From assembly GCA_021464245.1 (NCBI GenBank), contig JADCRB010000060.1, forward strand, positions 921,797-985,796: a DNA stretch of 64,000 nt. Reading direction: 5' to 3'. The position numbers were made by a program, and so were the translations under genes. The DNA comes from Carallia brachiata. Taxonomy: Eukaryota; Streptophyta; Magnoliopsida; Malpighiales; Rhizophoraceae. Below, in pieces: positions 27,281 through 53,977 of the stretch; position 1 is the first letter of the stretch, and the number at the start of each line of letters is the position of its first letter. Below the pieces are notes generated by a model, which did not search any database, had not been told where the DNA came from, and was given only the letters and a program-made list of their open reading frames with translations.

Positions 27281-28635
27281 AGGCAGGATAAATTTAGATT
27301 TAGATCACTAACTCAGGAATTATAAGTCAGTAACTTTCAAAAGTCCAACCCAAATTAATTTCGTTGGAAAAAAGTTCAGAATAGGTTAGTAACTTTAATT
27401 CCGTTAAGACCAACGTTAGGTGCTGAAGTGGCATGTTATAAGGCAAGTCACGTCAGATGAGTTTATTGACGTGTTAGATTACCTCGTCCACGTGTTCGAT
27501 AGTTTAGACAAAATTCTAAATTAGGTTAGTAACTTTAGATAAAGTTCTAAATTAGATTAGTAACTTTAGGATAAGTTTTAAATTGGATTGATAACTCTAA
27601 ATAAAGTTTTAAATTGAGTCAGTAACTTTCTAAAAGTTTACAATCTGGTCCAGCAACTTAAGGACAGTTTTAAACTTTCTTGTAAGTTAAAAAAAATTCA
27701 TGTCATTGACATGGACGGATAGAGGTGAAAAAAAAAACCCTAAAAACATTCTTATCTTTCATTTAAATATAAAATAAATATTGCAATAAACAAACTACAG
27801 TATACTATTTACCCATATCCAATTACTTTCAAGGACATAATGCTTAAAATATATACTTCTGAAAACAAATTTTAACAACCTCCCAAAGGGCAAGCCTTTC
27901 ATGACATTCTTTGAAACTTTTTTTTTTTAGTCAAATTGGTGGCTGCTGCCTTACAAGTGGGATCTTGCTGAGCAACTGCAGTATTCCTTTTGGTAGCCGT
28001 AACATCTCATGAAATCCCCAAAATAGATCAAAAGCATAATTGGCCATCCAGTCAGTTTCTTTGAAACTTTCTTGGTTGGGACATTGTCAACATGAATGTG
28101 GATGGGGAACTTTAATTGGTCCAACTCAAATTAGCCAGAGACAAGTTTGCTGTTAAATCACTCCGAAAGGACTTCACCATTAATTGCAAGTTGTTGCCTC
28201 TTCTAGAGTCAATTTGAGGCAACCAAAAAAGTGGTGGACTCGCAAGAATTACTCAAAATATTATCAGAGTTTATTTCCTCAATCTTTATCAATCCATAAC
28301 ATTGGACTCTTTTTTTTTTTTTTTCACTTATAGGAAAGTTCAGAACTGTTTTTTAATTACTGGACCCAATTGTGATTTTTTTAAAATTGCTAACTCAATT
28401 TAAAATTTTACTTAAAGTTACGGACTCAATTTAAAACTTTATCTAAGCTACCAAACACTTGGATTGGGTAGTTTGACACGTAAACAAACTTATCTTACAT
28501 GACTTAGCTACATTAGCATCATGTCAGCATATATATGCTAGTTTAAACGGAATTGGCCTTGATTATATATATTTTTTAAAGTTACTGATCTGAAATTAGA
28601 ATTTTTCTAAATTAGGGATCCAAATATGAACTTAT
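27281..28635. mobile_element. long inverted-repeat (foldback) element, unit 2 copy
   Basis: Counterpart of 21988-23220 with the same arms. A 136-bp LINE tail with a 14-bp target duplication is nested inside it. Confidence 0.6.
27921..28056 (-). mobile_element. 5'-truncated LINE tail with 14-bp target duplication
   Basis: The insert starts with poly-T on the plus strand (poly-A tail in the minus sense) and is flanked by a perfect direct repeat, ttctttgaaacttt (27907-27920 and 28057-28070). Unit 1 has only one such site near 22625. The minus-strand frame begins WMANYAFDLFWG, the end of a plant LINE RNase H domain. Confidence 0.8.
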
Positions 28636-28640
28636 TGCCA

Positions 28641-29729
28641 AGCGGCCTTTACAAAACAAAACCCTCGATGTTGTACCAAACAAAAATAATGTAAAATTGT
28701 AAGGCATAACTCAAGCAGTTTTGCTTCAAGAAATCTCTAAAGTAATAATCTATAATGGAACTAATATGTGCAAATAGTCAAATAAATGAGGAAAACATGG
28801 AGTAATAAACGAGAGAAATTGCAGGAAATTTACTTCGGCCATTAACCTTTTCAATTCTTCTTTACAGGACCACAGACACGCTAACCTTAATGAACCCAAC
28901 GACACTAGGTCTCACTCGCTAACTTTAATGAACCCAACGACACCAGGTCTAATACGTACGCTAACCTTAATGAACGCAACGACCCATTAATTTTCGAGTT
29001 TTGGTTGATGAGCAGAGAAACAAGGTAGAGAGATTGTTTATAATGTACAAAATCTCAAATTTTCAGCAATAAAATTTATACTTTAAGTAATAAAAAATAA
29101 AGTGATAAATTTTTATTATATAAAACTGAAATATTGTTATTTAAAATTTGACGTTTGTTACATTATGACTTATGAATACTTTTCTTTGCCTACTTTTCTC
29201 AGCCGACAGACTCTTCCCCATAATTTTCCGCGAAGTTGCACATCAAAGTAGTGCAGTAGAAGTTTCTGAAATTGGTAAGGTAGGCAAGTCTGGCATTTTA
29301 AAGATGCGCTGAGAGAAAACAAGTGAGATATAGAAAGGCCAATGCAATAATATTCATCTCATAATCTAATAATGCAGTAGCCCTGAAAATGGAATATTGA
29401 ATATGCCCAACCGCATGATGATAAGATCAATATCATTGGATATTATAGAGGAATGTAATTAAAATATATATTTTTCGATAAAAATTTGGTTCCAATTTCC
29501 AGACGACGAGACTGCAATTGACAATAAGCACAGAAGTTTGAGAATAACTCATAAGTCACAGAATGTCCATGCAAAAAATACTTGTAAATGAGTCCAAATA
29601 CTACTGCAAACTTAGATCAATCATGGCCCCCCTGTCACGAATATCAGCAATCCTTCTGCCATTAAAATATGTATATATATAAAATTATGCATCTTCTTCA
29701 ATTGTACTTGCATTCTGTCTCGCATCTTA
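28641..29729. other. downstream flank of RPW8-only gene 2
   Basis: Homologous to 23221-24250 of unit 1, with no gene. Confidence 0.5.
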
Positions 29730-30631
29730 TGGTGTGTTTGTTTTACTAATTTTTTTTTTAACAAAAAAATTTTCCTCATTTTCCAATGTTTCGGACACTG
29801 AAAACTTATAATCAACAGAAAATATTATGAAAATCAAAGGTAAAAATAGTCGCTTGTTATGTAAAACAACTACAATTCATAATAAGATGAAGTCATTTTC
29901 ATCCGAAAGAGTCGGGTTACCAAAAAAAAAGAGAAAAAAAAAGAAACAAAATCACATATGAGAGAGCATCAGATCGAGAGTAATGAGATTTTGGTAGTTG
30001 GACTTTTGCCGTATTTTTTATTATTATTGTGTAATATTATTCAGTTTATAAAATAATAGTATTAAAATTAATTAAATTTAACCCTGGTGACGGCTCCACG
30101 ATTTTGGCGGCCAACAAGTCAGCCTTTCACAGCATCCTCGATCATAAGTCAGACGAGGACAATATCATGGTCCTCGATTTCGACAAGCTTGTCGCCACCA
30201 GCGGTGAGCCGGGCGACCGATCTGTCCTATTTCAACCACTTAACACATACGGACTTAATATCAATTTCCGTTATCCAATCTCCCTTTTCCTCTTCCTGCC
30301 AGTCTGAATTTTAATGGGCTCTTCTTTATCTTTGGCTTTTCAGTACACAATAACCTATGCAATAATTGGTTGGAGCAATTAAAGTTTCAGAGCGTGTGTG
30401 CCAGTAGGGAAGAGAGAGGCGGCTATGAAGAGATAAGGATGAAAATTTGAGATGTTATATTATAAATTTTTAATAAATTTACAATTTTTTTATATCTATG
30501 AAACAAAAAAAAATATTTCAATAAATTTCATTATAATAATTAAACTGCAAAAAATAATTTTTTTTTTTACAAAATTTATTTTTATAAATATTTTACATAA
30601 ATAAATTATTTTTCAAAAACCAAACGCACAT
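29730..30631. mobile_element. MITE-like element, PIF/Harbinger-type ends, carrying a GC-rich gene fragment
   Basis: Unit 1 reads straight through (catcttagtttgaaa at 24266-24280), while unit 2 has 900 extra bases between two copies of TTA. Ends are TGGTGTGTTTG on the left and CAAACGCACA on the right, an imperfect inverted repeat. A TTA target duplication with GTGTTTG-type termini is usual for PIF/Harbinger elements. The flanks are AT-rich, but 30085-30310 is GC-rich and has a coherent frame (GDGSTILAANKSAFHSIL from about 30090). That looks like a captured exon followed by an intron-like stretch ending in ttttcag at about 30343. I do not recognise the source gene. Confidence 0.65.
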
Positions 30632-31222
30632 TTAATTTGAAATCCAATCTCCTAATCTTCCCGGAACTTGATGAAGAAGGCTCACAATAATCGCGGCCCG
30701 GAGTCAGGGGGGTCGTCGCCGAGCTTGACCAGGTTGCAATTCCGGGGCGGTTATTCGAGGACGACGGTGATCCTTGCGATGATTGTGGAATAGTACTGGA
30801 ACTGCTTTTGAGATTGAGCTTCTTGGTTAATTCAGTCACCTGGGCCAAAACTTGGACGATTGTCAAGTATTGCGCAAGCACCAAATCGACCCTGAGAAAT
30901 TCATCAAGAGCGGCAACAATTATGTCAATCTGATTCTCGTAATACCCGCCGTTGAACTTGTACCAGCGAGCATTTGAGCACGAAGAAATAACATCCTTGG
31001 CGCCCTCCAGGAGCTCGCTCAGTCTCACGGTTTCTTCGTTTGGGAACTTGTCTTGCATCTGAGGACCTAACTTGTTGATTTCTTCGAGCTCTTAATCAGT
31101 ATTTCCACTCTTGTTTGAAGAAGTTGCAGCTTGAACTTGAATCTAGAGGCTCCAGCTTTTGCTACCATGATCGCTTCAAGTAGCTTATACAGTGCAAAAA
31201 TCAGAGTTGATATTGGTTCCAT
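30606..31222 (-). pseudogene. RPW8-domain protein 2 (frameshifted; C-terminus replaced by MITE)
   Basis: Near-identical to gene 1 at 24232-24861. The ATG at 31222 (MEPIS start) is kept, but one base is missing near 31090 (cgagctctt against cgagcttctt), shifting the frame after about 45 residues. The remaining frame from an internal Met at 31058 still covers most of the RPW8 region and the Ser-rich tail. The last residues (VRLVFEK) and the stop come from the MITE inserted at 30631. A shortened product from the internal Met is conceivable but would lack the N-terminal hydrophobic helix. Confidence 0.82.
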
Positions 31223-31888
31223 GATCACCACAATCAAGCAACAATAAAAGCCCTTTTTTTAGTTCTTAGAAAAAATATGGTTTCCGTGAAGGCAATTTTC
31301 GGATCTATTATCTCACAGGATCGTTCTAACCATTGACAGAAATAGCACAAAAAAAGAAAACAAGGAACAATTAGAATTAGAGAGGCTACTAGCTTGGGTA
31401 CTAAAATGAGGCTAAAATAAATCGTGATTATAAGAATATGGAAAAACGAAGGCTAAGATTTGAAACTTGTGGCATTTAATCAAGATTAAATTAGTATTAA
31501 ATTTCCAACACTATGTTTGCCAGTTTCAGCGAAATTTAAGCCCAAAGTTGTAAATTTCAGAAGTTCCAACATTAACAATGTCGACATGGTACGTTAACAA
31601 TGTCGACATTAAACCATGTAATGCTCTCTCTTCTTTGTAATGCATGCGAAACTTCCTGGTAATTGGAGGTTCGCTATTTCTTGGAGTTATAGGTCATGCG
31701 GCTCATGCCCAGCCTTTTGAAATATAAGTCCTGGTCAGGCGAACCGTCCCGAGGCTAAACGAGAATTTGCTAGTTTCTTTCTATTGGAAATTAAAGGTAT
31801 GAATTTTTATATGAAAAAATGCAAAAAAAAATTAATATTTCAACCATCATTCCTCCCTCGGCATATTGAGTCATCTACAAAGACATAC
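31223..31888. other. upstream region of RPW8-only gene 2
   Basis: Homologous to 24862-25490. Contains a local duplication of 'ttaacaatgtcgacat' at 31572-31603. No gene. Confidence 0.5.
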
Positions 31889-32536
31889 TGTAAACAAATA
31901 AATAAATTTAAAAAAAAAAAAAAAAATAGTGGTTGGCAGCCGTCAACCTTGAAGGTTGGTCGCTGCCAACCTTTGCCTTTAATACCACCAACCAATTGGT
32001 TGGTGGCAGGCATGGGGGAGGCCTATAAATGGCCTCCCCCCAATTAGAAAGCAGCAGCAGAAAAAAAAAAGAAAAAAAGGGGCAACGAAGCGCAGTGCAA
32101 AAAAAAAAAAAAAGCAGCAAAGCAAGCGCAGTAAAAAAAAAAAAAAAAGAAGCGCAACAAAAAAAAAAATCCGGCTGGGATTAAGTCTCATACGGCCCTC
32201 AGGAAAAATTCAGGCAACTCATCCGAGAATAAGTCCATTCGACCCTCGGTGAAATTAAGTTAGATCGGCTCAGATCGAGTCTCTACGGTTCTTAAACGTA
32301 GTCAAAACATCCAAATCAGACACAGTTTCAGTCTATCCAGTTCAAGAAAAGCGGTGGAAATTATTTCTGTCAATCAAGCTCGTGCAGCCCTTGACGAGTC
32401 AAAAAAGGAACACTAATCGGAGGATCTACGGAGATCGACCCCACGTAAATTTTCTTTTACTTTACAATTTTTTATTTGTAATTTATTTTTGTATTTTCGA
32501 GTTTAATTATTTTAGGCTCGAAATTTACGCTTTACA
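31889..32536 (+). repeat. 5' LTR of the gypsy element (648 bp)
   Basis: Starts TGTAAACAAATAAA and ends GCTTTACA. The first 250 bp match the partial copies at 41152 and 41582. It holds a set of palindromes (accaaccaattggttggt among them), a TATA box and several long A-runs. Confidence 0.88.
32024..32030 (+). promoter_or_regulatory. TATA box of the gypsy LTR
   Basis: TATAAAT sits in the loop of an inverted repeat (gggggaggcc ... ggcctccccc), directly after the cluster of palindromes at 31930-32010. Confidence 0.65.
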
Positions 32537-32542
32537 AATTTT

Positions 32543-32560
32543 TGGCACGCCTGGTGGGAC
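32543..32560 (+). promoter_or_regulatory. primer binding site of the gypsy element
   Basis: TGGCACGCCTGGTGGGAC follows the LTR end after six bases. TGGC-starting primer sites are usual in plant gypsy elements. The exact tRNA cannot be assigned by eye. Confidence 0.6.
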
Positions 32561-32891: not shown

Positions 32892-34032
32892 ATGGAGAGT
32901 CCACAGCTTGCACAACAGGATCTCTCCCCTGACTCTCTTGCCGCATGGAGGAGTCGATCACCCACCCCGATCGAAATCGGGGGCAACACGACGAAGCCTG
33001 CTCAACAAAATCCGACTCACACAGAAGAATCAGAAGAGTTCTTTCCCGGAGCCTCATCTGTTGCCGTCATGATGACCAACACAACCAGCACAGAGGAAAG
33101 GATTTCAGAATTGGAGAACAAAATTTTGCAGCTGATCAGAGTCGTCGAGGAAAAAGATCAACAGATCGCAGCTCTCAAAGGAAAAGCCCCGATCCAAGTT
33201 GATCCCGAAATCCGCGAGGAGCAACCATATCCACCCGGTTTCACTCCAGAAGCCACACCAGCCGACGTCTTCCCTGCAGAAAAGCGACCAGGTAGTTCTA
33301 CACAGCTGCCACCCTCAAATTCTGTAGCTTCGCTATCTGTTCAACAATTGCAGGAAATGATAGCCAATACGATCCGACTGCAACAAGCTACATCCTTCCA
33401 AGGATCGCAGATGTACGTCAAACCGTACACCAGACGGATCGAAAGTCTCAACATGCCTCTGGGCTACCAGCCGCCCAAATTTCAACAATTCGACGGACGA
33501 GGCGATCCCAAACAGCACATCGCCCACTTCGTTGAAACCTGCAACAACGCAGGGACTTACGGAGATCTCTTGGTGAAGCAGTTTGTTCGTTCACTCAGAG
33601 ACCGCTTTCACCTGGTTCATAAATCTTGAACCAGAATCGATCGACAGTTGGGAACAGCTACAACGAGAGTTCCTCAACAGATTTTTCAGCACTCGAAGGA
33701 CGGTAAGTATGATGGAGCTTACCAGCACCAAACAAAGGAAAGGAGAGCCCGTTGTCGAATACATCAACAGATGGCGTGCCCTCAGCTTGGACTGCAAAGA
33801 TCGCCTGACGGAGACTTCTGCCGTGGAGATGTGCATCCAGGGAATGCATTGGGAGCTGTTATACATCCTGCAGGGTGTCAAACCCCGAACTTTCGAAGAA
33901 CTGGCGACCCGCGCACATGATATGGAGATAAGCATCCAGACTTCCGGAGGCACGGTTCCCATCCAGTTGGACCAGCAAGGGGGCAGAAGGGAGATTAAGA
34001 AACCCAACAGCTCCGGAAAAGGAAAGAAGTGA
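32892..34032 (+). pseudogene. gypsy gag, frameshifted
   Basis: The first frame (32892-33629) holds a coiled-coil stretch (ERISELENKILQL) and the start of the retrotransposon gag domain (PLGYQPPKFQQFDGRGDPKQH). The domain continues in another frame to 34032 (SWEQLQREFLNRFF; VVEYINRWRAL). A one-base shift near 33600 separates them. The protein would form the virus-like particle of the element. Confidence 0.85.
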
Positions 34033-34095: not shown

Positions 34096-35432
34096 ATAAC
34101 TCAGCCAAAACAACAGGAAAGGCGGAAGGTGACATTGCGAGAGTTGGAGCAGAAGCAGTATCCATTCCCCGACTCAGACGTCCCCGACATTCTTGAACAA
34201 CTCTTGGAGGCGAAGCTGATCGAACTCCCAGAGTGCAAGCGGCCGAATGAAAAGGATCGAGTCAGCGATCCAAGATTCTGCAAATATCACCGGATAGTAA
34301 GTCATCCAACGAGAAGTGTTTCGTCCTGAAGGAGCTAATCATGAAGCTCAAAAGCCAGAATAAAATCATTCTGGACCAGGAAGGCATAACCTGCAAACCA
34401 GACCACCATCACTTCAAAACCATCAGAAGAGGTGACACACCATAAGGAGGAGCCGCTCGACAACAAAAAGTCGACAACGGAGAAGGTATATGAAGCTCTC
34501 CAAACCCTTCTCGCTAACCCTCAGCTGTTTATAGCTTTGCAACAACAGAAGTGTGGCAAAATCAAGTCGGCAATACTCTCAGACCTCAGCTGAACCTCTG
34601 CCATCAAGAATTCAGCTCGACGGAACAGGCGGACCAAAATCACGTCGGATGTTACTCTGCTATCTCATTTTCAGATGAGGATCTCCTGCTGGGGTCCAAA
34701 CCCCACAATCGGCCGCTGTATGTATCAGGCTATGTGAAAGAACAGAAGGTTCGACGTATTCTGATCGACGATGGCTCAGCAGTCAATATTATCCCAAAAT
34801 CCACCATAAAGGAGCTCGGCATCGGCATTGATGAATTATCAGACAGCCGCTTGATGATTCATGGCTTTAATCAAGGAGGACAGAAAGCAATTGGGATGAT
34901 TCGCTTGGAGCTAACTATCGGTAATCTCACTTCTAGCACTCTATTTCACGTGATTGATGCACGTACCACATATAAGATGTTGCTAGGACGACCGTGGATT
35001 CATGGAAATGGAGTTGTGCTCTCAAGCCTGCATCAGTGCTTCAAGTACTACAATGGTGGCGTTCAAAAGGTCAATGCTGACTTAAAGCCGTTCGATGATG
35101 CTGAATCACATTTGGCGGATGCAGTCTTCTACACTGACACAGACAATCCGGAGATCATTCCATCAAAAGCTACTTGGACTGGGGGCATCCACAAAAAGGG
35201 AAAAGCTGTCGAAGAACCTGCCAATGCCCAACCCCAGGCTCCAACAAATGAAAAGCTGCCACAGCCTGCTGAACTTCGTCCGAAGGATGTTGCATCTTCA
35301 AGCTCCACTCCAGTCCTACGCTATGTGCCAAGTCACGACGCTCAGAAGGTCAACCCCCTTTCTCTTATTGTATTGATCTTAAACAGGAGCAAGGTCATAG
35401 CCAACCCAAAACAAAGGAGCTGCACAACCTGA
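34096..35432 (+). pseudogene. gypsy gag C-terminus and aspartic protease region, frameshifted
   Basis: 34105-34330 encodes the region typical of Tat polyproteins with FPDSDVPDILEQLLEAKLIE and a Cys/His knuckle (CKYHRIVSHP). From 34640 the protease-like domain carries LIDDGSAVNIIPKST, with the active-site D-S/T-G changed to D-G-S as often seen in plant gypsy proteases, and ends near 35020. Several frame changes occur between 34320 and 34560. Confidence 0.8.
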
Positions 35433-35747: not shown

Positions 35748-37879
35748 ATGCACGTGCCATCACCACCACCACCAAACAACAGGCTTATCCAGTCAAACAA
35801 AGAAGGTGAAGTCAGAGGTTCTGCATTTCATGTCACAATTAGCGAGGAGGCTGACTCATCAGATGGTGAAGTGAAGGAGGCTCCCCCGGAACTTGAAGGT
35901 GGCCAAGCAACTGTTGATGAACTCAAGGAGGTCAATCTTGGCTCTCCGGAAGATCCTCGACCTACATTTGTAAGTGCTTTACTTACTGCAGAAGAAGAGC
36001 AAGAATATGTTCAGGTATTAAGTCAATACAGGGACGTGTTCGCATGGAGTTACAAAGAAATGCCTGGACTTGACCCAAAAATTGCGGTGCATCGTCTAGC
36101 AGTAAAGAAGGGTGTCCGTTCTGTCAAGCAGCCACAACGACGGTTCCGCCCGGAACTCATTCCACAAATCGAGGAGGAGGTGAACAAGCTGATCAATGCC
36201 GGCTTCATCCGAGAGGTCACCTACCCAACGTGGATTGCCAACATTGTCCCAGTAAGAAAGAAGAATGGACAGTTGAGGGTATGTGTTGATTTTCGAGATC
36301 TTAACAAGGCCTGCCCGAAAGATGACTTTCATTGCCCATAACGGAGATCACAGTCGATGCAACAACGGGTCACGAAGCATTGTCTTTCATGGATGGTTCT
36401 TCAGGCTATAACCAAATCAGAATGGCACCAGAAGACGAGGAGTTGACAGCATTCCGCACCCCAAAAGGTATATACTGCTACAAAGTTATGCCGTTTGGAT
36501 TGAAAAATGCTGGCGCCACTTATCAACGTGCTATGCAAAAAATTTTTGATGACATGCTGCACAAGATTGTAGAATGTTATGTTGATGACTTAGTTGTAAA
36601 GACTAAGAAGCGCAAAGACCACCTCGAGGATCTCAAGACAGTGTTCGAAAGACTTCGGAGGCATCAGCTCAAAATGAACCCTCTCAAGTGCGCATTCGGT
36701 GTCACATCAGGAAAGTTTCTTGGGTTCGTGGTGCGCCATCGTGGAATCGAAGTTGATCAGTCAAAGGTTGAGGCAATTCAAAAGATGCCTGAACCTAAAA
36801 ACCTGCACGAGCTGCGAAGTCTACAAGGAAAGCTGGCCTACATTCGCCGTTTCATCTCCAATTTAGCTGGGAGATGTCAACCTTTCCATCGGTTGATGAA
36901 GAAGGATGTCAACTTCGAGTGGGACGAAGCTTGCAGCAAAGCCTTTGAGAGCATAAAGAAGTACCTTTCCAATCCACCGGTCCTAGGTGCTCCAATTCAA
37001 GGAAAGTCGTTGATTCTCTACATTGCAGCGCAGGAAAGATCTTTGGGAGCCTTGCTTGCACAGGAAAACGAGCAGGGAAAGGAAGTTGCCCTGTACTACT
37101 TGAGCAGAACACTAAACGGTCCGGAGCTGAGTTATTCGCCCATTGAAAAGACATGTCTAGCACTGTTCTTTGCCATTGACAAGCTGAGGCACTACATGCA
37201 GCTCACACGGTACGTCTCATTGCCAGAGCTGATCCTGTCAAATATATCTTCCAGACCAATCTTGTCAGGACGACTTGCCAAGTGGGCAGTAATCCTACAA
37301 AGCTACGACATTGTCTACGTGCCTCAAAAAGCAGTCAAAGGACAAGCTCTAGCAGACTTCCTTGCAGATCACCCTGTTCCGTCAGATTGGGAGTTCACAG
37401 ATGATCTTCCAGATGAAGAGGTCTTTTACATTGACACACTGCCACCATGGACGATGTTCTTTGATGGTGCAGCAAGGCGTGATGGTGCTGGTGCCGGCAT
37501 AGTGTTTGTCACTCCTCAACGACAAATACTACCATATGCTATCATTCTCGGTGAGTTATGTTCAAATAATGTTGCTGAATACCAGGCTTTGATCATTGGT
37601 CTTCAAATGGCTGTCGATATGAAGATTCCAACTATAGAAGTCCATGGAGATTCCCAGCTCGTCATCAACCAACTTACAGGATTGTATGACGTGAAGAAAG
37701 AGGACCTTGCGCCTTACCATCAACGTGCTCGACAGCTAATGGATGAATTTGAAAGCATCACCTTGGAGCATGTGCCTCGACGAGAAAACACTCAGGCAGA
37801 CGCGTTGGCTAACCTGGCTACTCTCTTGCAAAGTCAGAAATCCAGGCTACAGTTGTTGCTGTATGTCAGAAATGGATAG
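35748..37879 (+). pseudogene. gypsy reverse transcriptase, RNase H and second RNase H
   Basis: RT starts with the primer-grip region and FRDLNKACPK (about 36290), loses one base at 36340, and continues from 36332 with FMDGSSGYNQI, the YVDD catalytic box at 36578-36589 and GFVV. RNase H 1 follows around 37000-37200 (LGALLAQENEQGKEVALYYL). A second RNase H, with FFDGAARRDGAGAG near 37450 and HGDSQLVINQLTG, runs to about 37860. The long frame 36332-37879 is open for 515 codons, so this part is the best preserved. Confidence 0.9.
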
Positions 37880-39203
37880 TGCCACAAAAGGATGATGATG
37901 AAGAAACTACAGCAGCCAACGCTGTATCTGTACGTCTCGCGGAGGACGAGATTGGCGCCAACCAATCATTGACTACCTACAGCACGGGAAGCTGCCCGAA
38001 GATCGTCGTCATAAGACAGAAATTCAACGACGAGCTCCCCGTTCATATATCTCAAGGATGCTCTGTATCGAAGGTCTTTTGATGGAGTTCTTCGCTGCCT
38101 AGCCAATGAAGAGGCAAAACAGGCTCTCACTGAAGCACATTCTGGTGTTTGTGGCGGACATCAATGGGCCTAAGTTGCACTTCCAACTCAGAAGGATGGG
38201 ATACTACTGGCCAACCATGGTACGTGATTCAATTGAGTTTGCTAAAACCTGTCAAGCTTGTCAATTTCATGCGAATTACATACATCAACCACCGGAGCCA
38301 CTGCATCCAACTGTCTCATCCTGGCCCTTTGAAGCTTGGGGTCTCGACTTAGTGGGGCCCTTGCCAAAGTCATCCCTGGGTCACCTGTACATCCTCGCAG
38401 CAACCGACTACTTCTCAAAATGGGCTGAAGCCATTCCACTTAGAGAGGTAAAGAAGGAGCATGTTGCCAATTTCATCCGGTCACTCATCTAGATCTATCG
38501 CTATGGAGTCCCTCGATTCATCATCACTGATAATGGTAAGCAGTTCTACAACAGCTTAATCGACAAGCTCTGCGAGAATTCAAGTTCAAGCAGTACAAGT
38601 CATCCATGTACAATGCCCCAGCAAATGGCTTGGCCGAAGCATTCAACAAGACCTTATGCAACCTGTTGCGGAAGGTAGTCTCTAAATCCAAAAGAGATTG
38701 GCATGACAGAATTCCGGAGGCATTATGGGCGTATCGTACAACTTACCGGACTCCAACACAGGCGACGCCATACTCACTTGTCTACGGTGTCGAAGCAATA
38801 CTGCCGTTGGAAACACAGATTCCATCCCTGCGCATGGCTGTTCTGGAAGGACTCACACAGGAGGAGAATGCTCGCCTACGTCTGGATGAGTTAGAAGCTC
38901 TCGATGAAAGGAGGCTCGAAGCACAACAGCAACTTGAGTGCTACCAAGCCCGGCTCACCAACACGTTCAACCGCAGGGTCCGCCCTCGATCTTTTCAAGT
39001 TGGGAGACCTTGTTCTTGCAGTGCGACGGCCCATCAACATGAAGCATCGGCCTGGTGACAAGCTTACTTCCAAATGGGACGGGCCATACTTAGTGCAGGA
39101 GGCCTACACTCACAACGCTTACATGCTGTCAGACCAAGAAGGCGTCCGAATCGGCCCAATCAATGGTAAATTTCTGAAACGTATTATGTGTAAATATGTT
39201 TAA
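37879..39203 (+). pseudogene. gypsy integrase, broken
   Basis: The HHCC zinc-binding region (EAHSGVCGGH at about 38131; CQACQFH near 38250) and the core domain (WGLDLVGPLPKSS; FIITDNG; NGLAEAFNKTLCNLL) are recognisable. They are split by a stop at 38490-38492, a frame change around 38570-38610 and another near 39000. The C-terminal part ends GPINGKFLKR. No chromodomain is seen, as expected for the Tat/Athila branch. Confidence 0.88.
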
Positions 39204-39281
39204 AAAAAAAAAAAAAAAAAAAAATCAAAAAAAAAAAAAAAAAAAAAAAAAAAATAAAAAAAAAAATAAAAAAAAAAAAAT
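39199..39281 (+). repeat. A-rich tract after integrase
   Basis: About 80 bases almost entirely A separate integrase from the extra region. The Lys-rich frame across it is an artefact. Confidence 0.8.
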
Positions 39282-39610
39282 GCGAAGTCCCGATCTGAAA
39301 GACCAAGCGAAAATCCAAACCCAAACACTTGAACCCAATCCAAAGTCCAACCCAAACCAAATCCAAAAATCCAAGTCTAACCCAAACACTCACCCAAATC
39401 AATCCAAAAGCCCAAAACCCAAAAAATTCCAAGTTCCAACACAGTCCAGAACCCAAGTTCAAAATCCAATCCAACTCCTGACCCGCATGAGTATAAACTG
39501 TGAACGGCCCGAAAATATAAAAGCGACGGAGGGTTTGAGTCTGAAACTCAGCATCAGTCTCAATCGATCTTCACCACACACCAGACCTTTGCTCCTCTGC
39601 CACAAGAAAG

Positions 39611-40217
39611 ATGGAACCAGTTGCAGAACCTCAAGACAAGGGAGAAGAAAGGTCACCCCCACAAGGTGGCAACCAACCATGGCGCAACTGCAAATTAGAG
39701 GAAGTCTTCCACAACAATGGAGGTATTATGCCTAATGCATCTCAGATTTACCAACTTGTCTCACGATTACGCCCACTCGGGGCAATCGAAGGAAAAAATG
39801 TGTTTTATTGGTTCCAGAATCGGAGAAGCAGGAAGAAACCGGCGCTGAGAGATGGTATTTCCAAAGCACAGCCTGTCGTTCCTATAGTAGATCTCACCAG
39901 TACAGCTTCACCCTCAAATGAAGCCGGCCCAAGTTCTACCACTGCAATGGTCTCTCCACGGTACGTTCATCAAAGCGTAGCCATGGGAGCATACATACTG
40001 GTCCTGGTGGTTTCACGGAGTCAGCCAAGGGTTCATCCCTCCTAGATACTTAAGTCTAGGAGGAACTTTTCTAGCAGAAGGGAGTCATTCCGGCGAAACT
40101 TTGCCTCTTTTTCCAGAATATTCCGGCAGCATCAACCAGCCGGAAAGCGACGTCAACATCATCGGCCCACCAGACGAGGTCGAGCTTGACTTGGAGTTGC
40201 ACCTCGGGCCCCGCTAG
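39611..40217 (+). pseudogene. captured WUSCHEL-type homeobox (WOX) gene inside the gypsy element
   Basis: The frame starts MEPVAEPQDKGEE at 39611. The homeodomain spans about 39661-39840, beginning TRWQPTMAQLQ and ending with the WOX hallmark IEGKNVFYWFQN followed by a basic RRSRKK. IEGKNVFYWFQN is typical of the WUS clade; the tail resembles other WOX proteins. Further on are a WUS box, TLPLFP (40098-40115), and an EAR-like repression motif, LDLELHL (40185-40205), just before a TAG at 40215. Two or three one-base shifts (near 39650, 39691 and 39960-39990) break it. No intron is seen, consistent with capture of a processed transcript. WOX proteins are stem-cell and patterning transcription factors. 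Motif order argues against chance similarity. Confidence 0.88.
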
Positions 40218-40244
40218 GACGGCCGACAAGATAATGTGCAACGT

Positions 40245-40310
40245 CTTCTGCAGCACACGGCAACGACTTCTGCAGCACACGGCAACGACTTCTGCAGCAC
40301 ACGGTAACAA
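40245..40310 (+). repeat. 22-bp tandem repeat, three copies
   Basis: The unit cttctgcagcacacggcaac plus two bases is repeated at 40245-40266, 40267-40288 and 40289-40310. The third copy has two substitutions. It lies just after the stop of the captured homeobox gene. Confidence 0.9.
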
Positions 40311-40408
40311 CTTTCGTGACACGCGTCAGCCGCTACCTCTTTTGTCTCTTATGCAGGAAAGGGACGTGGATGGCCCTACTAGAATCTGCGTACCTTCTTT
40401 TTGACTTT

Positions 40409-41131
40409 TCAAAAAAAAAAAAAAAAAAAAAAAAAATTTATTACGCATGTATATATATCTTGCATTCTCGAGTTATAATACTCACCCCTCAGCTCTTCTT
40501 TCTCAAAAGAAAATGGCTAGTCTCTGCACTTGTCCCAGGAAGTTCTTTGATCAAGAAATTGGAGGCGCACGAGCTAAGAAAAGAATGAGTAGTCTTCCTC
40601 GAGGGATCCCTAACGCCATCGGTGTCATGGAGTTTCAACTACTCTCCTTAGTTCACATCTATCGCAGCGAGCCGAGAAGTTCTGATCGTCCTCCTGGATC
40701 TACAAATGCAGCGACGTGCAGGGAAGTTCCAACTATTCTCCTTACGTCGAAGCAGATTCGGGAATCATCACCATAACCCGTCTCTCTGTGCGCAAGTCTT
40801 AAAGTTCCAAAGTGCTGGGCATTCCTCTTGGGGAGGTTCAAGTTCTTTGCCTACCGGATCATCCTCACCAGAGCTCTGGAACTTTAAGAGATATAAAAAA
40901 TCCTTTGCGGGCTATGGAAGTTCGAATACACCTGGAGCCAAGACTTCAATTTCTATATTGGCTGGGCTGCTAACTTCTTCAAGATCATATCGGTTTTCTA
41001 TTACGATCCAACAACAGCAGGCATGGTCAAAGATAGAAGACTCCAAGATTCAATGTTCATCAGGACTTTCCAAATTTCAAACTGGATTTCAAGACTCGGT
41101 TCGAATCATCTCTGTAAAATCTTCCTTACCG
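40409..41131 (+). other. unassigned 3' region of the gypsy element
   Basis: A 27-base A-run at about 40410-40436 is followed by 700 bp up to the polypurine tract. Overlapping frames exist, for instance one ending just before the PPT with FNFYIGWAANFFKII, but I recognise no domain. It may be a further extra ORF of the element or part of the captured transcript. Confidence 0.45.
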
Positions 41132-41993
41132 ACCCTTGAAGTGGGGGCATTTGTAAACAAATAAATAAATTTAAAAAAAAAAAAAAAAAATAGTGGTTGG
41201 CAGCCGCCAACCTTGAAGGTTGGCAGCTGCCAACCTTTGCCTTTAATGCCACCAACCAATTGGTTGGTGGCAGGCATGGGGGAGGCCTATAAATGGCCTC
41301 CCCCCAATTAGAAAGCAGCAGCAGAAAAAAAAAAGAAAAAAAGGGGCAACGAAGCGCAGTGCGAAAAAAAAAAGAAAAGAAAAAAAAAAAAGAAAGCAGC
41401 AAAGCAAGCGCAGTAAAAAAAAAAAATTATTGATCTTGGTTAAGTCTCCTCGTGTCAGATCACAATAATAATGAGTTGAAACCTAAACGTCATTCTCTTA
41501 TAAATCTTAATTTATTTGGAACAAATTCCAACGTAAAAAACTCAAACAAAAAAGAAAGCACACCCTTGAAGTGGGGGCATTTGTAAACAAATAAATAAAT
41601 TTAAAAAAAAAAAAAAAAAATAGTGGTTGGCAGCCGCCAACCTTGAAGGTTGGCAGCTGCCAACCTTTGCCTTTAATGCCACCAACCAATTGGTTGGTGG
41701 CAGGCATGGGGGAGGCCTATAAATGGCCTCCCCCCAATTAGAAAGCAGCAGCAGAAAAAAAAAAGAAAAAAAGGGGCAACGAAGCGCAGTGCGAAAAAAA
41801 AAAAAAAGAAAAAAAAAAAAAAAGAAAGCAGCAAAGCAAGCGCAGTAAAAAAAAAAAATTATTGATCTTGGTTAAGTCTCCTCGTGTCAGATCACAATAA
41901 TAATGAGTTGAAACCTAAACGTCATTCTCTTATAAATCTTAATTTATTTGGAACAAATTCCAACGTAAAAAACTCAAACAAAAAAGAAAGCAC
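41132..41993 (+). repeat. 430-bp tandem duplication containing PPT, truncated 3' LTR and flank
   Basis: 41132-41561 and 41562-41993 are near-identical. Each starts acccttgaagtgggggcat (the polypurine tract), continues with the first ~275 bp of the LTR (41152-41426 and 41582-41858), then about 135 bp of non-element sequence ending aaagaaagcac. Copies differ mainly in A-run length. Since the non-element flank is included, duplication happened after the LTR was truncated and joined to that flank. Confidence 0.92.
41152..41426 (+). repeat. truncated 3' LTR of the gypsy element
   Basis: Matches 31889-32141 of the 5' LTR (with longer A-runs) and stops in an A-run. The remaining ~400 bp of LTR are missing. 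Confidence 0.88.
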
Positions 41994-45908: not shown

Positions 45909-46535
45909 TTACAAACACCATTCACTGTTTTCATAATTAACTTCAAACTCCGTAGTCTTCTTCTTTTTCTCGTTTCTTGACTTGTAATGAAAGTTAAAAC
46001 ACCGCTGGGACGTCCCTGAAGACTCCCATGTATCACTACTGCTTACAGTTCCCGGATTGGACATCGATGGCAAGGCATAGTAGACTCTGGGAGTTTTGTA
46101 CTCAGGATCCAGCTTCTCGTTAATTTCAATAACCTTTACCAATACTTCCTGTATTTGCTTGTACTGGGCAAACTGCAAATCCACCTTGAGAAACTCGTCA
46201 ATAGATTCAAGAAGACTGTCTATACGTTTTCCGAACTTCATTAGGTGGTAGAGGTCCCATGAATGAACACCTGAGCACGCAGAAATGAGGTGCGTGGCGT
46301 TCTCCAAAATCCCACAAAGTTTCAGGGTTTCTTTTTCTGGAAACATCTCCAGCTGAGCCTGGAGACCTAGCTTGTTGATTTGCTTGAAATTTCCCATCAG
46401 GGTTTCCAGCCTTTGTTGGAGCTGCAGCAGCTTAGGCTTGAATTTATGAGCTTCAGATATTGCAAAAATGATTGCTTCGAATAGTTTTTGGAACGCAGTT
46501 CCCAGAAGGGCCCCTAGGGCGAGACTGGCATCCAT
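45909..46535 (-). CDS. RPW8-domain protein 3 (intact, 208 aa)
   Basis: The frame starts MDASLALGALLGTAFQKLFEAI at 46535; an upstream in-frame extension exists but lies between the TATA box and this Met. A hydrophobic N-terminal segment is followed by RPW8-type helices (KFKPKLLQLQQRLETLMGNF; DEFLKVDLQFAQYKQIQEVL) and a Ser-rich, then Lys-rich tail (RNEKKKKTTEFEV). It is only distantly similar to genes 1 and 2 but close to genes 4 and 5, forming a second subgroup. Members of this family are membrane-associated immune factors. It is the only open copy of its subgroup here. A plausible TATA box lies about 100 bp upstream. Confidence 0.87.
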   Translation of the reverse strand: MDASLALGALLGTAFQKLFEAIIFAISEAHKFKPKLLQLQQRLETLMGNFKQINKLGLQAQLEMFPEKETLKLCGILENATHLISACSGVHSWDLYHLMKFGKRIDSLLESIDEFLKVDLQFAQYKQIQEVLVKVIEINEKLDPEYKTPRVYYALPSMSNPGTVSSSDTWESSGTSQRCFNFHYKSRNEKKKKTTEFEVNYENSEWCL

Positions 46536-46632
46536 CACAGAGCTTGGTAACAAACAAATGGTTTTTGGATTGTTAGGCCGAGATTTGGACGTAAGATAAT
46601 CTTTTGATTGGGGGAAAGGCAATTTTTCTATC

Positions 46633-46642
46633 TATTTATATA
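46633..46642 (-). promoter_or_regulatory. TATA box of RPW8-domain gene 3
   Basis: On the minus strand this reads TATATAAATA, about 98 bp upstream of the ATG at 46535. Confidence 0.55.
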
Positions 46643-49483
46643 CAGGCTATTGCGGCCAATGAGGGCCACTTGTGGGAATGTTCCTTTCTCTTTCCTTTTA
46701 CTTCTATGCACTTTAGGCAATTCGTAAGAAGGACTTGGCGAAAGTCGCTCCTCATTTTTACGTGTAAAGAAAGGTCAATATGGACCAAGATGCTCCTGCT
46801 TGGAAGTTAGAGGGAATATGTGTGTTGACCTGAGAAAAAGAAAATTGGATAAACGTGTAGTAGTTAAAGGGAAAAGTCTCTCCTTCTCGCTGATTCCATT
46901 CCAGAAGAAAAAAAAAAAATGGTTGGCGGCCCTTCTGATGTCAGGGGCGAAAGGCTGCCTGTGGCGCATACTCTTCTGCGAGACAAATGTGAGTTTACTA
47001 ACTGTTCATCGTACATTTTCTGCATTTCATTATATGATTAAATGTTTTTAATATTTTGATATATAATTATAACTAATTATAAGAAGTTACAAATTTTTAA
47101 CGAATGGTTTTGATAATACGATATAGAGTGATAATACAATGAGTACCGCTAGATTAAGTGTCAGTTAAATAAGTATAAATAAAAACAAAAATTTTTCAGT
47201 AATTATAATTAATTATTTTGTAATTGTGACTCTTTGTAAGTTTTCAAAATTAAGCTAAATAAATTTTCTCTCATACAATATAAAGCTATATATAAGTGAA
47301 TTTTATATTATTTTGTTAATTGTGCTCGTTTGAATTTGAGTACAAACTCTTTGAGTACATGTAACCAGTTGGTTTTTTCTTTAAAATAGTGTTCGTTATA
47401 TTGTACTAAACATGGTTAATCTAATCTTAAATCTTGATTAAAAAAAATTTTTTCCCACCTATGTCTCAATCGGTGTCTTTTTTATGGCCCACTAGATATA
47501 GATCGAAAAAGTACTACGCATACGTACTGATGTCGTCTCGCACACGTGTGAACACTCACATCCATGCGAGGGCCACCCACACCGCACCCTCCCTGCAGCA
47601 TTTTCTTGGCTCGGAATGACCATTTTCAGTGTTCTTAATTGGTTACATTTTCAGCCACCTTTACACAAAATTCAAACTGTTGGTCACAACTGTTAATATC
47701 ATATTCACACTAATACAATTGTTGCACTTTACGATATACTAATTAATCAATTAATGTAATTGTTGGAGATTTGACGAAGTGGTAATATACGTATGTGTTT
47801 GTTGTTAAATTATAGTGGGACGACAAAGAAAAAGAAAATAACGAAGAAGATGAAAACAGAAGATCATTTACTTGTTTCGAACGGAAATGAAAATCCAAAA
47901 ACGAAGAATAAAGAACAAGAGTACAAGAAGTCTCATATAGATGAAGATTTTTTTTTTTTTTGACCGACATATAGATGGAGATTAAGCCTCTAAAGAACAA
48001 GAAGTCTTATGGAAATTAATAGCCTTGCACCCTTGCACCTCTTATAGAAATTATTCTTCCAGAAATCCAGTCTCAAAGTTAACAAAGTTGCAGATTCTGT
48101 CCCCTTGATTTTTATTTTTATTTTTTGGGTTAGTTAACTTAAACTGAGACTAGAACATGAAACTTTCACCTTTAGAGAGTGAGTTACAACTTATTGATCA
48201 CCTTGATTATTCATGCACGTATCTAGTTTGCAGATTATGAGGGAAAAGCATTGATTATAAGATGAATCAATGAGAATTTCACCTTTATTTTTTCCCCATT
48301 TTCCCTTTGCATGTAAGTGGCTGCATCCCGCAGCATAATTCAGTTCAGGCCTACCTTATTTCCCCAAAAAAAAAAAAAAAACATTTAACATGACTTAAAA
48401 ATGTTGCTCAAAAAAAAAATATTGAAGAAAATGTAAAGTAATGTTTTGTTCTTGATATAGAGTTTAATTGTTTTAGGAACAAATAAATTCAACTGTGAAT
48501 CACAAGTGTACATATTGCATGTGTCATTATTCCTACAACTACAAGCATTTGGGTTTGGCTTAATTGGAACATAACCTATTTACATCACAGACACAATTAC
48601 AAACAGCGCTTTATTTTTCTCACATATGAAATTAACTACTTAATTTGCAAATATAAAGTTATAAAAACAAGTTATTTGTTAATTTTATTTTATTTTTAAA
48701 TGAGTAAAATTAACTCATGATCTAATATTATTTAAATATTATTTTTAAATTTTTTATTCAAATAAATTTTATTTATTTTGTGATATAAAATATAAAATTT
48801 TAAAAATAAATATACAGTATGCAAGGATGGTGCCATTTAATTTGTTAATTTTCTAACTTATTGGATCACTTTCAATCAGATGATTCACGTTTCGATTGCT
48901 ACAGTGTGAAAATTCAAAACAACGTCAAATCAATCAAAAAGAGGAAAAGAAAAGTACAAAGCCAGCTAAAATCATTTATGCTGTGATTGTACGGTGAGAA
49001 TTTAAGTAAAAAATAAATAGAAAGAAAAATAAATTAAAAATAGTATAATAATAATGATAGTATAATTGAAAAAAAAGTAATGATTAGAAAGTTGTGAAAA
49101 AGAAAATAAATAGTAATTTATGAGAGAAAAAATAAAAGATGATTGTTTGGATTGATAAAAAATGAATAAATAAAAAAAAAAATTTTAAAATTTTTTTTTC
49201 CTTTGTCTTTCCCTTAAAAAATACCCCATGGCCTTAGGCTATTGAACTGCAATTCCAATATATTGATTGAAGGCCGCAAAACACAAACAACAATAGAAAA
49301 TAAACACAAAACACTTGGAAACACAACATAGTTTGGATTTTTGACGAATCATGATCGTTGTATTTTTTTTTTTTTTTTGGCTAGTCTGAATGGCTAGATG
49401 ACCCTACCTAAGGGCACAGGAGCGAGGGAGGTGAGGCACATTTGCCAACCAAACGGGCTGAAGCCCATCCTCATCATCATCGT
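46643..49483. other. spacer between RPW8-domain genes 3 and 4, largely duplicated sequence
   Basis: No gene is seen. 46970-47300 is homologous to 52120-52450, 47610-47960 to 21370-21690 and 26690-27000, and 48450-48700 to 53260-53480. The RPW8 family thus spread by duplicating gene plus flanks. Confidence 0.6.
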
Positions 49484-50120
49484 TCATCTACGAACACCAT
49501 TCACTTTTTCACAATCAACTTCAAACTCTCTAGTCTTCTTCTTCTTCTCGTTTCTTGACTTGTAATGTAAGTTAAACAGCCACCCGGACGTCCCTGCAGG
49601 CTCCCCTATATCAGTGCTGCTTACAGTTCCCGGATTGTCAATGGATGGCGAATTGGCAAAGTAGAAATTGGGAGTTTGGTACTCGGGATCCAGCTTCTTG
49701 TTAATCTCAATAACCTTTACCAATACTTCCCGTATGTGCTTGTAATGCGCAAGCTGCAAATCCACCTTGAGAAACTTGTCAACAGATTCAAGAAGTCTGT
49801 CTATACGTTCACCGAGCTTGATCTGGTGGTAGAGGTCCCATGAATGACCCCTGCGCATACAGAAATGAGGTGGGTGGCGTTCTGCAAAATCCCACAAAGT
49901 TTCAAGGTTTCTTTTTCTGGAAACATCTGCAGCTGAGCCTGGAGATCTAGGCTGTTGATCTGCTTGAAATTTCCCATCAGGGTTCCGAGATTTTGTTGGA
50001 GTTGTTGCAGCTTAGGCTTGAATTTATGGGCTTCAGATACTGCAAGAATGATTGCTTTGCTTCTAATACTTTTTGGAACGAAGTTCCCAGAAGGGTCACT
50101 AGGGCTACACTAGCATCCAT
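49484..50120 (-). pseudogene. RPW8-domain protein 4 (two frameshifts)
   Basis: Homologous throughout to gene 3. The ATG at 50120 (MDASVAL) is kept, but five extra bases (around 50057-50061) and a one-base loss near 49850 break the frame. The C-terminal part is readable from 49897 and ends VNGVRR at 49484. Confidence 0.82.
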
Positions 50121-52680
50121 CGCACAGCTCAATAACAAACAATTTGGTTATGTTTTTGTTTCTTTTAGACGTAAGATGATCTCTTGATTGGGGTTGGTGA
50201 AGAGATAAAGAAAGAAAAAAAGAGAAGCATATTTGATGTTCCTACTAATTTTTTACTTTTTTTTAAAGTTCGACTGTGCCGATATGTTAAAAAGGTTTTG
50301 CATGTATAGACACAATAAACAGATGCAGACATATGTGATAAGATAGTGAATTGCAACAAGATGTTGTTGCAAATTATAGAATTACAGTGTATTGTGGCAG
50401 GTTTATCTACCTTGTTGCCAATCTTATATTTAAAAACAAAAAAAAAGAGACAAAACTCAAAAAGCGGTGGGACTAATTACTACTCAGCCCTTTTACATTC
50501 AAACATTTTGTCTCCGTACTTTTTTTTCGTTTTAAAAGGGTTTGGTTACATGGGTAGATGTATGTTGTTATATTTTGTCTGTATACGTTAATTTTGTGTA
50601 ACCGTGATTATTATTTGTATAACTATAATTACAAAATGTGAAGCAAAAAAAATAGTAATACATTTTGTATCACTTTTTATCGTTACGATTACACAAAAAA
50701 TACTCGTTATTACAAAAAATAAGTACATATGAATATAATAAAAAAAATTTGTATGTCCACCAAATTTTTTCCTTTTCAAAAATATGTGTTATGTGTGATT
50801 TAGAATAGACATAAGGACGGAAATTCATTAAACATAGTATATTTAATAATTAAGATTAATATGTAATAAATGTTATATATATAATAATTAAAAGATATAT
50901 CACACACCAAAATTTTAACAAACAAAAATTAAAAAAATAAATAAAATAACCGTAGATGCCTCGGGTCCAAACAGCCCCAGTCCATGTATCAGATCTCAAA
51001 TTTGGCCAATGGATACCAATTGTGCGAACGAACGTGCCTTTCATTTCCTTTTTCTTTTTCTCTTTCTTTTTGTTTTTCTTTTGACCGAGGGCACTCCTTT
51101 TATATGTGTAAAGTATCGACATTAATCATTATGGACCTAGATCAGCGGCGGATTTATTTGATTGCCCCAAGAATTAGGTATAAAATTATCGAAAAAGATT
51201 GTTGGCCGGAGAGTAGTGGTCAGAAAGAGTGTATAGAATGTAATAATTTTGAGAATTTTTACAATTGTATTAATTTTTTTTTGTAATAAAAAATAATATA
51301 ATAATTTGTTATATCATATTTTATCAATCTAATTACAAATATAATCAAATTCGTTAGATTATTGATATTTCTTCTAGTCACTTCTGTCTAGTCATGTATT
51401 TGAATCCTAAAATTATATAGGTTTTTATATTTGTTCAAATTTCTTCTTTGCCGTTCTCAAAAAAAAAAACAAAAAAAAACAAAATCTTCTTTGCCCCCAA
51501 TTAATTGAGAAACTCAATAAGAAAGTAATTTTTTTTAAATTAGCTCTCAAAAATTTTATGAATTCTTTTTTGTTAAAATTTTGTTTATCCATATATATTC
51601 AATATTTTCTATGTTGCTTTATTTCTTTTTTTCAAACTCTCATTTACGTGTTTTTAAACATTTTTGTAAAATTATAAGTTGGTGGATTCATATTGCGCCC
51701 ACCGACAAGATTTTCTAGATCCTTGACTGACCGAGATGCTCTTGCTCGGAAATTACAGGAACTTGTGGTGACCGCTGTATATATGGTTTACCTGATATAA
51801 GGGATTCGGATCTATATCACCACTTTTGCAAGAGTCAAATGATGAGGTTAATATACAGCTCATTGCTTAGTACGTGGATTGCCCCAACCATCGGATTGTT
51901 TCATACCCCTGAGCACAGAGCCGTAGTCCCTAACAATACGCTTACTGCATGCCCCTCAAGTAGAGAATCGCAATACTTTGTAGCGTAACTATGAATCACC
52001 ACTTCCACCTTTTGATCTTACGGATAAAAATAAAAAAAGGAAAAAGAGGAACGTGAAGTAATTAAGGGTAAAAAGAAAATAGATGAATACTCATGAAGTA
52101 ACGCGAGACTAATATGAATTTACTGGCCACACAATCATGATCCTTCATTATACATTTTCAGTATTTGGATATATAATTATATATTTTTAATATTTTGATG
52201 TATAATTATAATTATTTATAAGAAATTATAAATGTCTAATGAATGGTATTGATGATAAAATATAGAGCTATAATACAATAAGCACCATTATACAGGTGTA
52301 GGTTAGAGAAGTACTATTGTGAACAAAAGTTTTTTAGTAATTATAACTGGTTACTTTAAGAAAAATAAATAAAATTCTAATTAAAAACTTTATGTTTGTA
52401 GCTCCTTATAAATTTTTAAAATTAAGTCAAACAAACTTTCCGTTTACAATATAGAGCTCCATCATCCGTTTCCCTCATCCGTTGACTATGCTGATGCCCC
52501 GGTAATAAGCATTAACTATATCAATGTTCTAGTGATTAATAAAGAATACGAACCAAAAAAATAATGGCAAAAGGCCTCAATTGGACCATACCCTTTGACT
52601 TCTTTTTAAATAACGACCATTTTGTTTTAAATTGATCACCAATTTTTTTCTCCATAAATTATTTTTCTACCTTTTTGTTA
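50121..52680. other. spacer between RPW8-domain genes 4 and 5
   Basis: No gene is seen. 50780-51000 resembles one unit of the 300-bp tandem repeats at 54705-55610. 51010-51090 and 51730-51770 resemble the upstream region of gene 3 (46660-46810). Confidence 0.5.
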
Positions 52681-53164
52681 GTTTGCCGTTAAATATGTCA
52701 CATCAACATTTGATCAGCGTTGATTCAAATGTCACGTTATCATTTTTTATAACATAAAATTTTTGAAAAAATATATAAATTGACAAAATTGTTAAAAGAT
52801 TTCAAAAAATTAAAAATATAAACTCAAAAAAGAATTCAAAGAGTATTATAAAAATCTAAAAAATGAAAATAAAATCTGAAAATATTTTCAAAAAATCTGA
52901 AATGTTTAATTTACAATTAAAAATTAAAAAAATTTCAGAATTTTTCAATTTTCAAATTGAAATTTTCAGATTTTTTAAAATATTCTCAGATTTTATTTTT
53001 TGTTTTCATTTTTTTAAAATTTAAAATTCTTTTTTGAATCTGTAATTTTTTTGAAATTTTTTCAATTTATTTTCACATTTTCAGATTTTTTCTAAATATC
53101 ATGTTATCAAAAATGATGACGCCACATATGAGTTAGACTAATTAACTGACATGAGATGGCAAAC
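52681..53164. mobile_element. AT-rich foldback MITE, about 480 bp
   Basis: The ends gtttgcc and ggcaaac are perfect inverted repeats. Inner arms such as gtcacgttatcatttttt and its partner near 53105-53122 pair across a centre near 52930. It is non-coding. Confidence 0.65.
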
Positions 53165-53977
53165 TACGAGCATATTGCATGCATCTTATTTCTGGGAAAA
53201 AAATTACATTTAATTGAAAATATTGCTAAAAATAAAACAATAAAGAGAATATTGAAGAAAATGTAAATTAATGTTTTGTTCTTGAACTAGAGTTTTATTT
53301 CTTTTAGGGCACAGATAAATTCAACTGTGAATCACGAGTGTACATATTGCATATATTACTATTCCTTCAACTACGAGCATTTGGGTTGGCTTATTTTTAC
53401 AAACATAACCTATTTTCATCACAGATACAAACAGCGCCTTATTTTTCTCACACATATCAAATTAACTATTTAATTTAAAAATATAAATTTAAAACACAAA
53501 AATACAATAAGCAAGGGTGGTGTCATTTAATTTGTTTCCTCAATTATTGGATCATTATCAATCAAATGAATTTTATTCATGTTTCGATTCCTACAGTATG
53601 AAAATCCAAAACACCCTTGACTCAATCAAAAAGTGAAAAAGAAAAACACAAAGCTAAAGTCATTTAGGCTGCATTTGTTACATCATATATTATATGAAAA
53701 TATAAGATAGATTAATCTATTTTATTGTAAGTATAATGAAATAAAATTAACCTATCATATACTATTTACGATGTATCAGGTTCCAAACGCACCCTTAGGC
53801 TGTGATATGGCCTAAAAACACAGACAACAATGAAAAATAAACACAAAACATGGAAAACCTAACGTAGTTTAGGGTGCGAGCACCATTCACGTTAGTCTTA
53901 TTCCTCAAAAAAAAAAAAAAAAACCTAACGTTGTTTGCATTTTCGACGATTCATCATCGTTCATTTACGAACACCAT

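Follow-up and report, generated by a model that had tools for sequence, protein, structure and literature searches.

The window, a 64,000-nucleotide stretch at 921797-985796 of a Carallia brachiata contig, holds a Ty3/gypsy retrotransposon that carries a WUSCHEL-type homeobox (WOX) gene between its integrase and its polypurine tract (PPT). Along the + strand the order is 5' LTR, gag, protease, reverse transcriptase, two RNase H domains, integrase, WOX, PPT and LTR:

31889..32536, + strand: 5' LTR (TGTAAA...TTTACA), from alignment with the 3' LTR
32543..32560, + strand: probable primer binding site (PBS), TGGCACGCCTGGTGGGAC, like the sequence after the 5' LTR in other copies
33577..34032, + strand: gag (Pfam Retrotrans_gag, 1.7e-14)
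34518..35432, + strand: aspartic protease (Pfam Asp_protease_2 and gag-asp_proteas, 7.4e-4 each, below the curated cut-off)
36326..37879, + strand: reverse transcriptase, RNase H and a second RNase H (RVT_3) (Pfam RVT_1, RT_RNaseH_2, RT_RNaseH, RVT_3)
38103..39203, + strand: integrase, split by frameshifts (Pfam Integrase_H2C2 at the cut-off; rve and SH3_Tf2-1 below it)
39515..39523, + strand: TATA box, ATATAAAAG, proposed as an internal promoter, 96 bases upstream of the WOX ATG
39611..40217, + strand: WUSCHEL-type gene, putatively captured, frameshifted (about 203 codons in open copies)
39661..39840, + strand: homeodomain-coding part (Pfam and structure matches)
40098..40115, + strand: WUS-box TLPLFP, read from the window sequence
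40185..40205, + strand: C-terminal EAR-type repression motif LDLELHL, before the stop, read from the window sequence
41139..41151, + strand: PPT, AAGTGGGGGCATT, adjoining the 3' LTR
41152..41426, + strand: 3' LTR, truncated, from alignment with the 5' LTR
41132..41992, + strand: 430-bp tandem duplication of the PPT, the truncated LTR and 135 unrelated bases (99% identical)

In the window element the Pfam cut-offs are exceeded by gag, reverse transcriptase, both types of RNase H and the zinc domain of the integrase; the protease, rve and the SH3 domain of the integrase score below theirs. Tat elements of flowering plants are described, in the relevant part of PMC6317226, as having two RNase H domains with the second located before the integrase (the angiosperm Ogre/Retand arrangement). 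Here, RT_RNaseH occupies positions 199-327 and RVT_3 positions 379-498 of the reverse transcriptase frame, with the integrase downstream. The element belongs to the Tat clade of Ty3/gypsy: the RNase H arrangement, LTRs, PBS, PPT and target duplications are all found. The 3' LTR of the window copy resembles the 5' LTR only in its first ∼275 bases, with 5 mismatches over the aligned first ∼256, and the 135 bases that follow it have no counterpart in other loci. The 430-bp duplication is a recent rearrangement of the 3' end of this copy. On the antisense strand of the window copy, where TRP28 was sought, the two longest open reading frames have no Pfam match. Near-perfect palindromes (GGTTGGCAGCYGCCAACC, CCACCAACCAATTGGTTGGTGG) lie at 31930-32040 and 41185-41290, upstream of a TATA box in the promoter part of the LTR; they are absent from the other LTR groups of the element family, and CCAACC resembles MYB sites.

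The element sits within a cluster of RPW8-type immune receptor genes on the - strand (11661-15218, 23300-31330 and 45909-54570). The RPW8 frames are duplicated in tandem, and the single frame scanned, 45912-46631, matches Pfam RPW8 at 1.5e-22; frames in 11661-15218 resemble NB-ARC and leucine-rich repeats. Judged by eye, the frames at 17200-17928 and 18724-19335 resemble a pentatricopeptide-repeat gene that has been duplicated, the repeats of 17200-19335 being 93-96% identical to 7.7-9.2 kb (7700-9220), and a frame at 60447-61019 resembles a FAR1/FHY3-type transposase-derived protein.

A sequence-only reading of the window had recognised a WOX homeodomain at 39611..40217, and the translated search bears this out: the frame at 39545-40042 matches Pfam Homeodomain at 2.4e-7 and WUSCHEL 6ry3, the best solved match, at 2.5e-12. 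The limits it gave are exact, with the insert's ATG at 39611 and its TAG stop ending at 40217, and the Pfam domain order agrees with its placing of the gene on the sense strand of a Tat element, in the integrase–PPT interval. The pieces of the gene sit in three frames, one with helix 1 (TRWQPTMAQLQ), one with the rest of the homeodomain and one with TLPLFP and LDLELHLGPR-stop; the window copy is therefore broken by several frameshifts. The insert occurs in two sequence types, A and B. Informative sites in the window insert are all type A from 39602 to 39840, all type B from 39841 to 40046, and mixed thereafter; the insert is either an A/B recombinant whose breakpoint lies where the homeodomain ends, or the holder of an older combination. 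An A-run at 40411-40436, ∼195 bases past the WOX stop, could be the fossil poly(A) of a captured RNA; A-runs are common throughout the window element.

The same gene recurs across the genome. A degenerate homeodomain-helix pattern, designed not to fit cellular WOX genes, has 584 exact matches in the 337.5-Mb genome and the reversed pattern has none, which excludes chance. The B-type helix sequence by itself has 123 matches, and truly mutated copies would raise the total above 584. Used as a DNA query, the insert drew 1241 first-look candidates, from which 40 were scored: the window and 39 others, the latter at 92-94% identity and each spanning bases 1 or 3 to 620. Thirty loci were cut from the genome as an insert-chosen sample, the window and 29 others. 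All 29 align with the window over 38896-40995 without missing a single 60-bp bin, and 28 continue to 41175, through the PPT. Seventeen of the 29 are open from the homeodomain to the C-terminal motif, most of them with 203 codons; one of the 17, L012, has its middle in another frame and is without the WUS-box, and L005, also insert-chosen, has an altered end. Because this sample was selected by the insert itself, a second was drawn with integrase DNA as the only query: of 916 first-look candidates 40 were scored, and 20 of the 39 that were not the window itself were fetched. By blastn the insert is present in all 20, three of which align over only 447-561 of the 607 bases. WFQN is readable in 18 of these copies and the full frame is open in only 4, so the majority are dead, as would be expected of any old family. 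Recurrence of the insert between integrase and PPT in other copies, on which the sequence-only reading made a spread of a stem-cell transcription factor gene by the element family depend, is thus upheld by both samples (29/29 and 20/20), and the gene is present in hundreds of copies.

The ends of the copies are those of inserted elements. BLAST of the stretches around both LTRs finds an LTR pair in 25 of the 29 insert-chosen copies, and a pattern search places a PPT next to the 3' LTR in 28 of the 29 other copies. Identical 5-bp target duplications flank 10 of the 14 copies whose ends could be anchored at PPT and PBS; in the remaining four the duplication is mismatched and the 5' LTR is 178-332 bases shorter than the 3' LTR, the LTR start probably having been set wrongly inside the LTR. 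K2P distances between the LTRs of the 14 copies range from 0.020 to 0.073, corresponding to about 0.8-2.8 million years at a rate of 1.3e-8. Grouping by the initial 300 bases of the 3' LTR (threshold 120 bases at >80%) separates 28 copies into five LTR groups, all carrying the same insert, so the gene stayed while promoters were exchanged.

The encoded protein can be read from L004, another copy with a naturally unbroken frame of 203 amino acids. It matches Pfam Homeodomain at 2.2e-12 and aligns without gaps to WUSCHEL 6ry3 (2.7e-18), versus one gap for STENOFOLIA; Pfam EAR matches in L004 and L017 fall only below the cut-off. The WUS-box is TLPLFP in A-type copies and in the window, and ILPLFP in type B. 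The tail of helix 3 reads RRSRKK in type A and RRHRET in type B, with the WFQN core intact in both. By its predicted protein, the insert is a WUS-clade gene: it has a WOX homeodomain and a WUS-box, together with the extra residue of WUSCHEL and a C-terminal EAR motif.

Over the 17 open frames, pN/pS (Nei-Gojobori) is 0.51, with 0.38 in the homeodomain and 0.61 in the rest, values that come from frames preselected as open and from non-independent pairs. Pairwise pN/pS is 0.26-0.44 in seven of eight sampled pairs and 0.89 in the eighth, a near-identical one. The integrase gives 0.51 over 11 copies; in the same seven copies in which both are readable it gives 0.43 and WOX 0.58. The insert is apparently constrained about as much as the integrase, with WOX somewhat higher in the same copies. 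Identity to the window copy among the 29 insert-chosen copies is 0.97-0.98 over the TATA box, leader and ATG, 0.88-0.92 over the latter half of the homeodomain, in which types A and B differ, and 0.97-0.99 over the WUS-box and EAR motif (0.99 in the C-terminal motif), before dropping to 0.88 in the first bin beyond the stop. The integrase-chosen sample of 20 likewise falls from 0.97 to 0.81 at the stop. Because this edge of conservation falls at the stop codon, it argues for function at the level of the protein, and the conservation of the gene in hundreds of copies suggests that the element uses it.

The host has nine WUS-clade loci of its own, two of which, L031 and L032, are ordinary WUSCHEL genes. 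Both WUSCHEL genes have three exons, with the homeodomain in the first, ETLPLFPIH in the last and two apparent introns between them (exon edges read by eye from the sequence rather than from annotation). The WOX frame of the element is uninterrupted and intronless in open copies, and since host WUSCHEL has introns this suggests capture of a processed RNA. The homeodomain spans 66 positions in the element and in L031 and L032, and 65 in the seven other host loci. It shares 30-31 of 66 positions with host WUSCHEL and 34 of 64 with host L035, and in a homeodomain tree the element copies cluster together, set off by a branch of 2.24, with no exact WOX subgroup assigned. The higher identity to L035 and the unsettled placement in the tree argue against a simple WUSCHEL origin; the long branch, combined with young insertions, suggests an old capture. 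L004 has 419 protein matches at E <=0.01, the best being WUSCHEL of Hibiscus syriacus (3.0e-18); among the best 120 of the 419, none is an element-borne relative and none exceeds 53% identity. Of 128 named relatives, 120 have TLPLFP. As for the host genes, the first exon of L031 is closest to Turnera subulata (78.9%) and the homeodomain of L032 to Podostemaceae (63/66), a rough placement that points to Malpighiales. No relatives were found in viral contigs, and none of 19 pattern matches in bacterial and archaeal contigs was confirmed.

A TATA box lies upstream of the WOX ATG in 29 of 30 copies, as the exact 9-mer in 27. By analogy with the antisense gene of Grande, it may be an internal promoter; the TATA block is not proof of one, because it is conserved no more than its surroundings. 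The mRNA of the insert could possibly be spliced from the LTR transcript instead. Derivation of the TATA box and leader from a host WUSCHEL promoter was rejected, as blastn against nine host WOX loci gave matches of at most 39 bases (best E 0.008). Self-regulation of the LTR by WUS-type sites found no support: no site is conserved in 29 LTRs, TGAATGA and TAATGA each occurring in 0/29, and TTAATSS, at 1.17 per LTR versus 0.46 in shuffled sequence, has no fixed place.

The gene probably began as a spliced WUSCHEL messenger, taken up long ago by a Tat-clade Ty3/gypsy element that retains it as a sense-strand accessory gene between integrase and PPT. WUSCHEL binds DNA by its homeodomain and represses through its WUS-box and EAR motif, and the shoot stem cells that it maintains give rise to the germline. 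Because homeodomain, WUS-box and EAR motif are all kept, we infer that the element protein is a DNA-binding repressor. The upstream TATA box would drive a separate short mRNA of the element WOX gene; the protein would enter the nucleus, bind DNA via the homeodomain and repress genes through the WUS-box and EAR motif. The most likely benefit would be that cells are pushed into, or held in, a meristem-like, germline-producing or silencing-poor state, so that new copies are inherited. LTR/GYPSY and COPIA elements are among those reported as up in young stem cells in part of PMC7560203, and a passage of PMC10589665 connects WUSCHEL with keeping viruses out of stem cells. A WUSCHEL-like element protein may favour stem cells or disturb their defence. 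The full proposal, that an element-made repressor with its own promoter shifts cells towards the meristem state or within it and so raises germline transmission, and that the capture is old enough to be shared with Vigna, as an accessory gene of a Tat sublineage across rosids, is offered tentatively and is unlikely to hold as a whole.

The gene might instead be a passenger, captured once and of no benefit to the element, with the open frames belonging to young copies of a lucky lineage. Insertions as young as those dated by their LTRs (K2P 0.020-0.073, 14 copies) and the broken state of 16 of the 20 integrase-chosen copies are consistent with this. However, over half of the homeodomain positions differ from those of host WUSCHEL and yet the homeodomain is open, with WFQN intact in types A and B; pN/pS is 0.26-0.44 in all but one of the eight pairs (the eighth at 0.89), the insert is kept across five LTR groups, and identity falls at the stop codon in both samples, all of which makes a passenger distinctly unlikely. 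The protein could also interfere with host WUSCHEL, as a decoy or in a dominant-negative manner, competing with it for its co-repressor or dimer partners and so preventing WUSCHEL-dependent antiviral or silencing functions from operating in stem cells. This would suit the high conservation of the WUS-box and EAR motif (0.97-0.99, the best in the gene) and the varying helix 3 tails (RRSRKK, RRHRET), as well as the link of WUSCHEL to virus exclusion made in that passage of PMC10589665; it is an unlikely account given that the recognition-helix core WFQNRR and the homeodomain fold are kept and that pN/pS is lowest in the homeodomain (0.38).

A different objection concerns the structure of the locus itself: the homeobox gene could have been resident first, between unrelated gypsy halves, or be a host WOX gene with elements inserted beside it. 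The window copy is alone in being rearranged at its 3' end, as such a history might predict, but the order is identical in all 29 other insert-chosen copies, the LTRs match, 5-bp duplications flank 10 of 14 copies, and the host WUSCHEL genes sit elsewhere and have introns. Two different elements around a resident gene are ruled out by the 29 copies and the 10 target duplications, and the objection as a whole is exceedingly improbable. Beyond the sequence-only reading, the capture by a Tat element now comes with a broken window copy, a probable processed-RNA origin, evidence of constraint and a precedent in Vigna. Such elements may inflate the WOX gene numbers that genome papers give, and a testable question follows: are host developmental regulators used by retrotransposons to reach the germline?

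Extra genes of plant LTR retrotransposons are known, mostly of unknown function, and some retroviruses carry host regulators, a likeness for a retrotransposon with its own stem-cell regulator. Retand and Grande, as described in parts of PMC11963269 and PMC7264820, are Tat-clade elements that likewise have an extra coding region between pol and the 3' LTR; their extra ORFs are antisense and encode TRP28 or unknown proteins, whereas the ORF here is sense and host-derived. The antisense gene23 of Grande is described in the latter (PMC7264820) as having its own promoter. The portions consulted of the Retand survey (PMC11963269) and of a 2026 gene-capture review (PMC13317346) contain no homeobox or WUSCHEL. 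In orchids, a Ty3/gypsy lineage has fixed a host-derived extra ORF for an AlkB/2-ODD m6A demethylase (excerpts of PMC9289625), as the lineage here has fixed its own; the orchid cargo is an enzyme, in contrast with the transcription factor type found here. The same source screened 121 angiosperm genomes for extra domains and gives, in these excerpts, 15 domains, with mention of B3 and a LONELY GUY-type domain; 'homeo' and 'WUS' are absent from the text of the screen (PMC9289625).

Among open-licence PubMed Central papers the searches yielded one precedent, a 2023 meeting report on Vigna (PMC10714607). It describes WOX genes amplified to >1000 copies in Vigna riukiuensis, most of which lie within pairs of identical LTRs and have target duplications, and also covers LTR-flanked WOX amplification in Vigna marina (PMC10714607). 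The Vigna LTR-WOX and the element here share very many WOX copies, flanking LTRs and target duplications, a likeness by description only, as the report says nothing on sequence, lineage, position, frame or selection. The host here is not Vigna-like, the first exon of its WUSCHEL being 68.7% identical to that of Vigna unguiculata. With cellular WUSCHEL the element gene shares the homeodomain length, the TLPLFP WUS-box and the C-terminal EAR-type motif, in the same order. It differs in being intronless, ∼203 codons long, ∼46% identical in the homeodomain and mobile with a retrotransposon, and in its helix-3 tail, RRSRKK or RRHRET in place of the cellular HKARERQK. The cargo here is a recognisable derivative of the shoot stem-cell maintenance gene, apparently kept by selection.
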